In this document: one piece after another, positions 47,532 to 51,049 of the stretch | How the letters are laid out: each line of letters begins with the position of its first letter | Position numbering within the stretch: the first letter of the stretch is position 1 | Assembly: GCF_007483685.1 (NCBI RefSeq) | Contig: NZ_VMKN01000001.1 | Span: 2,344,393 to 2,408,392, forward strand | Length of the DNA: 64,000 nt | DNA from: Litoribacter populi | Lineage (GTDB): Bacteria > Bacteroidota > Bacteroidia > Cytophagales > Cyclobacteriaceae | Reading direction: 5' to 3' | The notes under the pieces: generated by a model | The model's input: the letters and a program-made list of their open reading frames with translations, nothing else | What the model was told of the DNA's origin: nothing | Database searches by the model: none | Translations under genes and position numbers: made by a program

Positions 47532-48059
47532 CTATTCTTCCTCAAACATGCCTTTCATTTCTGAAAGCATTTCCTCTACTTCTGCTTTTTTCAACTCAAA
47601 TGCCTCATCCAACTTGCTGTTGTTAGTGAAATGATTCCAATGCTTTTCAGCCTTCTTGATTACCCTGGGCGTGATGTCAAATTCTGTATAATCAAGGTAA
47701 TACTTGGCAATAGCTGAGGCTTTGAAATTGCCAAACAAGTAGATTCTTAAAACATCCACAAATTTTTCGCTGATATCAAATCCCTCCAATGCCTGTACAA
47801 AGGCCCCATTTTGATTTTTATTTTCCTTATCATGGATTGCCTCTAAAAGAGGTTCTAAAGCAGATTGGTTGTTTTCCATTTTGGAAAGTGCCCTAGCGGC
47901 CAAAAATGCACACTCCTTATCTGCCCCCTGTATCAGTTCAACTAATTTAATTATGGTCTCTTCTCCTCCAACTTCAGCCAATTCATCGGCATATTTATAC
48001 GCCTCCTCTTCCTGAGGATTACACATTTTTTCCAGTAAACTATCTATATTTATTTCCAT
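47532..48059 (-). CDS. HEAT-repeat protein
   Basis: 175-aa acidic helical protein with HEAT/Armadillo-like repeats: DELAEVGGEETIIKLVELIQGADKECAFLAARALSKME near residues 25-63 and SALEPLLEAIHDKENKNQNGAFVQALEGF next. No signal peptide. Probably an adaptor for protein interaction. TATATTTG on this strand at 48083-48090 is a good -7 element for it. Confidence 0.8.
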   Translation of the reverse strand: MEINIDSLLEKMCNPQEEEAYKYADELAEVGGEETIIKLVELIQGADKECAFLAARALSKMENNQSALEPLLEAIHDKENKNQNGAFVQALEGFDISEKFVDVLRIYLFGNFKASAIAKYYLDYTEFDITPRVIKKAEKHWNHFTNNSKLDEAFELKKAEVEEMLSEMKGMFEEE

Positions 48060-48121: not shown

Positions 48122-48832
48122 ATGGATCAAAAATTAATTTCAGCCGCGGAGAGTTCTCATTTATTGGAGATAATTCACCATATTCCTTCTGACAAGGATT
48201 TTAAGGATCATGAGTGGTATTTTTTCCAAGAAAATGAGACCGTCTTGAAATTTCGTCCTCCTATTCATTTCGATTTGGATGAGGAGGGACGGTTGAAGTC
48301 AGAGGATCTCCAGAATTACATCGTGCTTCTAATAAGATCAGGTATCGCGTCTATCGGCTATTTCGAAAATGGGGAAAACATTGACCACAAGGTTTTTAGA
48401 TCATATATGGTCAGAAAAAAACAGGGAAAGAGCCAAATCAAACATCTCAAGACAAAAGGCAAAAGCCGGGCGGGTTCACGGGTCCGTTTGGCTGAAACTT
48501 TGGAGTTTTTTGAAGAGATTAATGAAAGGCTTGACCAATATTTTTCTCAATATTTTGTCGGTAAAATTGCTCTAAGTTGCTCCACCACGCTTATACCCTA
48601 CCTTTTCAATAGCAAGACTCCTACCCCATTTGAAAAAAGCGATTCTCGGATTAAAACTGTTCCCCGTCATATCCAAAACCCTACTTTCGAGGCGTTGATG
48701 GCCACCAATGAATTTCTGAAAAAGGGGGAATTAAGGTATAAGCCGGAAGCCCTGGAGTTGCTAAAAGGCTTAATTTCGAGTGAGTCAAATTTGAGTTCTA
48801 ATCCGGATGAAGAGGAGGATGAAAACTGGTAA
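48122..48832 (+). CDS. bVLRF1-like protein (Vms1/ANKZF1-type release-factor fold)
   Basis: 236-aa protein that I place in the bacterial VLRF1 family, related to the eRF1-like domain of eukaryotic Vms1/ANKZF1, which frees nascent chains from stalled 60S ribosomes. Residues 93-124 hold the core: RSYMVRKKQGKSQ, with the catalytic-type motif GKSQ (G102, Q105; pattern GxxQ), then KTKGKSRAGSRVRLAE, a basic loop like the RSAGASLRR segment of ANKZF1. An acidic tail ends DEEEDENW. Function in bacteria is not established; peptidyl-tRNA hydrolysis is the family inference. Followed 51 bases on by the radical-SAM start I prefer. Confidence 0.78.
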   Translation: MDQKLISAAESSHLLEIIHHIPSDKDFKDHEWYFFQENETVLKFRPPIHFDLDEEGRLKSEDLQNYIVLLIRSGIASIGYFENGENIDHKVFRSYMVRKKQGKSQIKHLKTKGKSRAGSRVRLAETLEFFEEINERLDQYFSQYFVGKIALSCSTTLIPYLFNSKTPTPFEKSDSRIKTVPRHIQNPTFEALMATNEFLKKGELRYKPEALELLKGLISSESNLSSNPDEEEDENW

Positions 48833-48883
48833 TATTTGGTTTCAGAGAAAACCTTGTCGAACTTTGCAGTAAAATCGACCGTC

Positions 48884-51049
48884 GTGCAACAACAAGTACT
48901 CCTCATCACCCCGCCCTTTACCCAATTAAACACGCCATATCCCGCTACGGCCTACCTTAAGGGTTTTCTTAATACGATTGGAGTGTCAGCAAAACAGGCT
49001 GATCTTGGCATTGAGGTGATATTGAGACTTTTTTCTAGAAGTGGACTTGAGGAAATGTTCGCTCAAATCCCAAAGGACCGAAAAGAAACCCTTACCCCGA
49101 ATTCCAACCGTATATTTAAATTGAAGAAGGATTATATTGATACCATTGATCCGGTTATCAGTTTTCTTCAGTTCAAAAATCCAACCTTGGCCTACAATAT
49201 CTGTGATGAGGATTTCCTTCCCCAGGCTTCCAGATTTCAACAATTGGAAGAGCTTGATTGGGCATTTGGGACTATGGGGATTCAAGATAAAGCAAGGCAC
49301 TTGGCGACCCTATATTTGGAAGATTTAAGCGATTTTATCCAAGAGGCAGTGGATCCCAATTTTGGGTTCAGCCGTTATGCAGAGAGGCTCGGGAGATCAG
49401 CTAGCTCCTTCGATCCGTTATATGAAGCGATCCAATCAGCTCCTTCTTTTATCGATAAAATGATTTTTGAACTGTTGGAGCCCAAAATGCAGGGCATAAC
49501 AACTGTTTGTATTTCAGTCCCGTTTCCTGGAAATCTTTTCGGGGCTTTAAGAGCTGGGCAGTTTATTAAAGCCAATTATCCCAAGGTCTCCATAGCCATG
49601 GGAGGCGGATATCCCAACACTGAACTGAGGTCAATTAAAGACCCTAGAATATTTGAATTTGTGGATTTTATCACACTTGACGATGGCGAAAGGCCTCTTG
49701 AGAACCTACTTCAATATTTAAATGGGGAAATCCCACAGGAAAAACTCAAAAGAACATTTTTTAAGAATGGAGAGAAGATCGCCTATTCCATAGGTCAGTC
49801 ATTGGACGTTCCATTCAGCAAAGTAGGAACGCCTGACTACGAAGGTCTACCTTTACAGAATTATCTTTCTGTCATCGAGATTGTCAACCCCATGCACCGA
49901 CTTTGGTCAGATGGAAGATGGAACAAGCTTACCATGGCCCATGGCTGCTATTGGAAGAAATGCAACTTCTGCGATGTTTCTTTGAATTACATTCAACATT
50001 ATGAACCAATTAGCGCACAGTTGATTTGTGACAGGATTGAGGAGTTGATTAAGCAAACTGGTCAGACAGGATTTCACTTTGTCGATGAGGCGGCACCACC
50101 AGCCCTGATGCGGGAATTGGCGATAGAAATTCTCAGGAGAGATTTAAAGATTACCTGGTGGACTAATATTCGCTTTGAGCAAAGGTTTACATTGGACCTT
50201 TGTCGCCTTCTTAAAGCTTCCGGTTGCATAGCTGTATCGGGAGGTCTGGAAGTTGCCTCTGACCGATTGCTGAAACTCATGCAAAAAGGTGTAACGGTCG
50301 AGCAAGTCGCAAAAGTGGCTCATAACTTTACTGAGTCCGGCATTATGGTACACGCCTACCTAATGTACGGATTTCCGACCCAGACTGATCAGGAAACGAT
50401 TGATAGTCTAGAAATGGTTAGACAACTCTTTCAATACAATGTACTTCAATCAGGGTTTTGGCATTTATTTGCCATGACCGCGCACAGTCCTATCGGTCAT
50501 GAACCTGCTAAATTTGGTGTGACGAGGGTCGGTCCTGATTTCGGTGGGTTTGCCGACAATGATCTCATTCATGAAGATCCAACAGGGGCCGAACATGAAT
50601 GGTACAGCGATGGACTTAAAAAGGCCCTATTTAATTATATGCATGGTTTAGGTTTTGATTTTGACTTACAGGAATGGTTCGATTTTGAAATTCCAGAAAC
50701 ATCCGTTCCCAGCAATTTTATCTATAATGCCATTACTGATGAGGCGGCCGAAAAATTGAGCTCAAATTCAAAACTTGTATGGATCGGAAATCAGCCTGAA
50801 CTTAAGATCACGGGTCAAAATAAAGGTATCCTCTTTATTGAAAATAAGACTTCTTCCCTTCAAGTTAGGTTTAAAAAAGATAATGAAGCCATCTTAAAAT
50901 GGCTGTTCGACAATCTTCAAGGACACAACTCCATTGCCTGGTCAGCTCTACAGGAAAATCTGCAAGAAAATCAAAATCCATCTTGGGATAGGCTCCACCA
51001 ATCCAGGGTATGGAACGAGTTAAGGTCGGTTGGACTATTGATTGTTTGA
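48884..51049 (+). CDS. B12-binding-domain radical SAM protein with a CX4CX2C cluster motif
   Basis: 721-aa protein with an N-terminal cobalamin-binding-like region (VLLITPPF, then VSIAMGGGYPNTEL) and a radical SAM core. The [4Fe-4S] ligands are Cys355, Cys360 and Cys363 in HGCYWKKCNFCD, spaced CX4CX2C instead of the usual CX3CX2C. The SAM-domain segment SGGLEVASDRLLKLMQKGVTVEQV is well preserved and a C-terminal region follows. GTG 48884 gives the normal family start (MQQQVLLITPPF); TTG codons at 48836 and 48854 are alternatives. Substrate unknown. Convergent with the amidase, 15-base overlap. Confidence 0.87.
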   Translation: MQQQVLLITPPFTQLNTPYPATAYLKGFLNTIGVSAKQADLGIEVILRLFSRSGLEEMFAQIPKDRKETLTPNSNRIFKLKKDYIDTIDPVISFLQFKNPTLAYNICDEDFLPQASRFQQLEELDWAFGTMGIQDKARHLATLYLEDLSDFIQEAVDPNFGFSRYAERLGRSASSFDPLYEAIQSAPSFIDKMIFELLEPKMQGITTVCISVPFPGNLFGALRAGQFIKANYPKVSIAMGGGYPNTELRSIKDPRIFEFVDFITLDDGERPLENLLQYLNGEIPQEKLKRTFFKNGEKIAYSIGQSLDVPFSKVGTPDYEGLPLQNYLSVIEIVNPMHRLWSDGRWNKLTMAHGCYWKKCNFCDVSLNYIQHYEPISAQLICDRIEELIKQTGQTGFHFVDEAAPPALMRELAIEILRRDLKITWWTNIRFEQRFTLDLCRLLKASGCIAVSGGLEVASDRLLKLMQKGVTVEQVAKVAHNFTESGIMVHAYLMYGFPTQTDQETIDSLEMVRQLFQYNVLQSGFWHLFAMTAHSPIGHEPAKFGVTRVGPDFGGFADNDLIHEDPTGAEHEWYSDGLKKALFNYMHGLGFDFDLQEWFDFEIPETSVPSNFIYNAITDEAAEKLSSNSKLVWIGNQPELKITGQNKGILFIENKTSSLQVRFKKDNEAILKWLFDNLQGHNSIAWSALQENLQENQNPSWDRLHQSRVWNELRSVGLLIV

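Follow-up and report, generated by a model that had tools for sequence, protein, structure and literature searches.

A Bacteroidota bVLRF1 protein with the active-site residues of yeast Vms1 is a candidate nascent-chain release factor in Litoribacter

We report that the open reading frame at 48122..48832 of a 64,000-nucleotide stretch of Litoribacter populi DNA (the window) encodes a member of the bVLRF1 family which, judged by alignment, keeps every active-site residue that is essential in yeast Vms1. By analogy with the yeast protein, the product probably does the same job as Vms1 in Litoribacter, and release of nascent chains on the ribosome is its likely activity. The bVLRF1 family, its motif and its proposed release-factor role date from 2019 (Burroughs and Aravind, PMC6514570); the gene described here is a further member of a family already described, the release-factor idea is not new, and this earlier description limits the novelty of the Litoribacter instance. 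The present analysis adds that genes for an RqcH-like NFACT protein, tmRNA, ArfB and Pth are present in the same genome, and that a HEAT-repeat gene is a conserved neighbour.

Results

Assignment of the Litoribacter protein to the bVLRF1 family

The open reading frame is intact, begins with ATG and encodes 236 aa. The gene and its parts are as follows.

48122..48832, + strand: bVLRF1-family gene for a predicted RNase H-fold release-factor-like protein (PF18826, 109.7 bits; matches to yeast Vms1 structures; single copy)
48122..48316, + strand: N-terminal extension, aa 1-65, mainly beta in the model (pLDDT about 94; structural alignment with Vms1)
48320..48724, + strand: predicted bVLRF1 catalytic domain, aa 67-201 (region of the PF18826 match)
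48386..48436, + strand: putative active-site segment H89-K-x4-Y95-x2-R98-x3-G102-K-S-Q105, aa 89-105, running into the catalytic loop (ungapped Vms1 alignment; invariant residues)
48455..48487, + strand: basic loop and start of a helix, KGKSRAGSRVR, aa 112-122 (seven residues invariant in 66/66 homologues)

The first-pass annotation had likened this protein to the VLRF1 domain on the strength of a G102-K-S-Q105 motif and a basic loop. Both were found at the places given, G102-K-S-Q105 inside HKVFRSYMVRKKQGKSQ and the basic loop downstream of it as KGKSRAGSRVR (residues 112-122). The bare GxxQ motif alone has no meaning, because it was present in 25 of the 53 open reading frames of at least 150 aa in the window. 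The narrower pattern G-x-[SA]-Q was present in 8 of these 53, and 48122-48832 was the sole carrier of the extended signature H[KR]x4Yx2Rx3Gx[SA]Q.

When the protein was searched against Pfam, it matched PF18826 (bVLRF1, 'Bacteroidetes VLRF1 release factor') at 1.6e-31 and 109.7 bits, with a cut-off of 27, and the same family was matched by all 53 aligned homologues. The profile of acVLRF1 (PF18859), which belongs to the same VLRF1 clade, scored 13.9 bits, under its cut-off of 27.1, and no baeRF family was among the Pfam matches of the 236-aa protein at E up to 1; baeRF_family10 was touched weakly by 8 of the 53 homologues (best E 4e-4), alongside their bVLRF1 match. Only bVLRF1 passed its cut-off within the 236 aa, and profile searches detected no Rei1-type zinc finger, ankyrin repeats, treble-clef or Cdc48-binding domain (the last being a short motif that was covered by profiles only). 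Given that no accessory domain of Vms1 was detected, the protein falls outside eVLRF1, although its mode of action may be similar; it is also bacterial and much shorter than Vms1/ANKZF1. By its sequence, it is an ordinary member of PF18826 that differs in nothing of substance from the described bVLRF1 proteins (PMC6514570), which it resembles in sequence and domain, in its GxuQ motif and N-terminal extension, and in having a Bacteroidota host. bVLRF1 has been regarded as the family nearest to eukaryotic VLRF1 (PMC6514570).

Active-site residues compared with yeast Vms1

In a single-sequence phmmer search, yeast Vms1 was the only PDB match at E values up to 10 (best E 0.004). When the PDB was searched with a profile of 53 homologues, Vms1 was recovered at about 9e-12, and the sole other row was an unrelated chain at 0.49. 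The phmmer alignment to Vms1, HKTFHRYTTRRKQGGSQ, was ungapped and placed H89, Y95, R98, G102 and Q105 on yeast H279, Y285, R288, G292 and Q295, respectively. Mutants of yeast Vms1 at R288, G292 and Q295 lose both function and release activity, Y285A shows a partial defect, and H279A has a wild-type appearance (PMC5989216). All five aligned residues were invariant in the 66 distinct homologues (66/66). The GxuQ motif (u, a tiny residue) is present as GKSQ at 102-105; its G and Q were found in 66/66 homologues and its third position was S or A in 64/66. Downstream, G113, K114, S115, G118, S119, R120 and R122 were likewise invariant (66/66). The basic residues expected of a bVLRF1 in the helix that follows the first strands are also present, with K114, R120 and R122 lying in or at the start of a helix modelled at 114-143.

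Predicted structure

An AlphaFold2 model was built from the 53 homologues and gave a mean pLDDT of 87.8 (~88) and a pTM of 0.83. The catalytic loop, roughly residues 95-120, was the poorly ordered, flexible part of the core of the model. The top Foldseek matches were Vms1-60S complexes, followed by eRF1; TM-scores by query length were modest (0.43-0.49 for Vms1) and came from long, gapped alignments. VIA-align superposed the model on Vms1 with a Z of 11.2 at 4.3 A over 168 residues, the N-terminal part included, and on eRF1 with a Z of 11.0 at 3.3 A over 129 residues; Balon structures were also among its matches, at Z of about 9-10. The Vms1 alignments (6r86, 6r84 and 5whg) began at model residue 2-6 and ended at 207, whereas those to eRF1 spanned only about 61-201, starting at 61-64. 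By these starting points, the model has the N-terminal extension that is common to bVLRF1 and eVLRF1 (PMC6514570).

In its predicted fold, the Litoribacter protein therefore shares both the catalytic domain and the N-terminal region of the eVLRF1 proteins Vms1/ANKZF1 (5whg, 6r84, 6r86, 6r87), together with their H/Y/R/G/Q active-site residues. With the middle domain of eRF1/aRF1 it has in common an RNase H fold that carries a catalytic loop (129 residues superposed at Z about 11), but the match is limited to that domain and GKSQ replaces GGQ. Sequence, profile, Foldseek and VIA-align results thus all point to a VLRF1 domain with the fold and active-site residues of Vms1/ANKZF1. The VLRF1 assignment of the first-pass annotation was borne out by the curated HMM, the yeast sequence match, the predicted fold and the invariant residues, and the sequence and structure checks it had proposed came out in its favour: profile searches recovered VLRF1 similarity, the model superposed on Vms1 and also on eRF1, and Q105 was conserved throughout and aligned with the active-site residue Q295 of yeast. 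Its description of the protein as a candidate ribosome-rescue or peptidyl-tRNA-hydrolase factor is a reasonable inference.

Rescue and quality-control genes in the same genome

Rescue factors were sought in the Litoribacter genome family by family, the set covering NFACT, tmRNA, ArfB and Pth. The following gene, outside the window, was identified by its profile and RqcH matches.

L067:1419-2987 (G000:C1): RqcH-like NFACT gene

The encoded protein is 522 aa long and scored 78.6 bits for NFACT_N and 60.9 bits for NFACT-R_1; B. subtilis RqcH matched it at E 4e-21 over residues 265-516. Its N-terminal domain was poorly conserved. The genome also contained tmRNA, an ArfB gene above cut-off, and a Pth (PF01195) gene. 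ArfB was found in 44/59 genomes of the bacterial family with bVLRF1 and in 24/59 of those without it; given this positive co-occurrence, the idea that bVLRF1 replaces ArfB was rejected.

Distribution of bVLRF1 and its co-occurrence with NFACT

bVLRF1 was present as a single copy in its own genome, in 59 of the 118 genomes of the bacterial family and in 67 of the 241 genomes of the order, across eight families. In the phylum-wide sample it was found in 5/296 genomes, all five from the window's own family. The nearest named relative was a protein of Litoribacter ruber (72% identity). Searches of phage and plasmid collections returned no bVLRF1 match and PADLOC assigned no family; with these sources all lacking a match, the possibility that the gene is mobile, phage or plasmid cargo was rejected.

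NFACT was found in 199/241 genomes of the order, namely in 61 of the 67 genomes with bVLRF1 and in 138 of the 174 without it (Fisher p 0.04, relatedness ignored). Within the bacterial family, NFACT was present in 57/59 genomes with and 56/59 genomes without bVLRF1; because NFACT is near-universal there either way, co-occurrence at this level is uninformative and was rejected as a functional test. Elsewhere in the phylum, many genomes had NFACT but lacked bVLRF1. Among genomes of the class Bacteroidia outside the window's order, the phylum sample yielded four weak NFACT matches (best E 2.7e-5) and no bVLRF1. Conversely, four species of genus g54 (G053, G555, G614 and G619, all 99% complete) had bVLRF1 without detectable NFACT, while their congeners G106 and G602 had both; two draft genomes, one of them 86% complete, also had bVLRF1 without NFACT. 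Because some genomes keep bVLRF1 without NFACT, a strict dependence of bVLRF1 on RqcH is unlikely.

Discussion

Proposed function

Vms1/ANKZF1 works on 60S subunits carrying peptidyl-tRNA and frees the chain, a reaction that was reported as ester hydrolysis (PMC5989216) and alternatively as removal of the CCA end of the tRNA (PMC11317155, PMC12868832). A literature search that covered few subscription papers found no publication on the biochemistry of a bacterial VLRF1. By analogy with the eukaryotic proteins, the bVLRF1 protein would bind in the A site of split 50S subunits on which peptidyl-tRNA remains, and its flexible GKSQ loop would enter the peptidyl-transferase centre. The stalled chain would then be freed by Gln-dependent ester hydrolysis, or by removal of the tRNA 3' CCA as reported for ANKZF1. 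A stop codon should be dispensable for this protein, because no stop-codon domain was detected. Since a gene for an RqcH-like NFACT protein is present in the genome too, the cellular role that fits best would be to end RqcH-type ribosome-associated quality control (RQC), with Pth and ArfB working in parallel; this is the least certain step of the proposal, and we put it forward as a close call that leans slightly to the doubtful side. The poorly conserved N-terminal domain of the RqcH-like protein, the undetected Vms1 accessory domains and the use of Pth for RQC release in B. subtilis (PMC11317155) weigh against the proposal.

The end of bacterial RQC was its least understood stage as of 2024, with Pth, which acts as an RQC release factor in B. 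subtilis, the sole releaser reported and no dedicated factor identified (PMC11317155). The proposed output of the Litoribacter protein is the same as that of Pth, a chain freed from RQC particles, but Pth belongs to a separate family (PF01195) and has its own gene in the Litoribacter genome. With a Vms1 homologue that retains the essential residues and occurs together with an RqcH-like gene, the termination of bacterial RQC becomes directly testable. It is possible, though somewhat less likely than not, that bVLRF1 is a dedicated RQC terminator in this Bacteroidota order, with RqcH adding tails and bVLRF1 releasing the chain, and that it represents a prototype of eukaryotic Vms1; a dedicated bacterial terminator, if true, would be the point of real interest. 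bVLRF1 also bears on the proposed Bacteroidetes origin of eukaryotic Vms1 (PMC6514570).

Alternative explanations

Several bVLRF1-containing genomes had no NFACT, and prokaryotic VLRFs have been regarded as standalone (PMC6514570). Both points would suit a general ribosome-rescue factor whose releasing activity, on 70S or 50S complexes, does without RqcH and backs up tmRNA and ArfB. This reading deserves consideration but is rather doubtful: the closest characterised homologue works on split large subunits (PMC5989216), and the frequent presence of ArfB in bVLRF1-containing genomes of the family suggests that ArfB is not being replaced. A second question concerns the chemistry, and its answer is compatible with a role in RQC. 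The protein might be an ANKZF1-type nuclease that cuts the 3' CCA off the P-site tRNA and leaves the ester bond unhydrolysed, as has been reported for Vms1/ANKZF1 (PMC11317155, PMC12868832), whose active-site residues are identical in the bVLRF1 protein. The chemistry is disputed (PMC6514570), however, and the Litoribacter sequence favours neither nuclease nor hydrolysis; we regard the nuclease as possible, somewhat short of an even chance. A tRNA mimic without catalytic activity, blocking the A site like the hibernation-type Balon/baeRF1, would have the same overall fold, in keeping with the Balon superpositions. The catalytic Gln is absent from most baeRF1-type families (PMC6514570), whereas Gln, Gly and Arg are invariant here and the Pfam assignment is to bVLRF1, and such a mimic is very improbable.

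The remaining alternative concerns the genes that flank bVLRF1 in the window.

47532..48059, - strand: HEAT-repeat protein gene, 175 aa, divergent from bVLRF1 (PF13646, just over cut-off)
48836..51049, + strand: radical-SAM gene (PF04055), 737 aa when read from the listed TTG, although translation may begin further downstream

The radical-SAM gene lies next to bVLRF1 on the same strand, and bVLRF1 was present in 39 of the 48 family genomes that carry the radical-SAM orthologue (48/118 genomes, mostly 53-82% identical), which could suggest a two-gene operon for modification of the ribosome or of a release factor, or for peptide maturation. However, the orthologue adjoined bVLRF1 only in G000, G071, G042 and G018 and lay apart elsewhere, and the genes downstream of bVLRF1 varied among loci; a radical-SAM operon partner was therefore rejected as a general feature. 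Moreover, the HEAT-repeat gene co-occurred with bVLRF1 equally strongly, as shared ancestry would predict. The radical-SAM gene is probably not a functional partner of bVLRF1, and we consider the operon reading exceedingly unlikely. As a separate observation, the radical-SAM protein was B12-binding-like; the NCBIfam models nearest to it, for RiPP C-methyltransferases and PhpK-type proteins, all scored well short of their cut-offs.

The conserved neighbour of bVLRF1 is the HEAT-repeat gene rather than the radical-SAM gene. The two share a 62-bp divergent intergenic region in the window, and their matches lay less than 1 kb apart in 24 of the 35 family genomes that have both. When bVLRF1 loci of the order's other families were compared, no common neighbour stood out, and the pairing may be simple synteny. 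In G062, the HEAT-repeat and bVLRF1 genes adjoin but run in the same direction.
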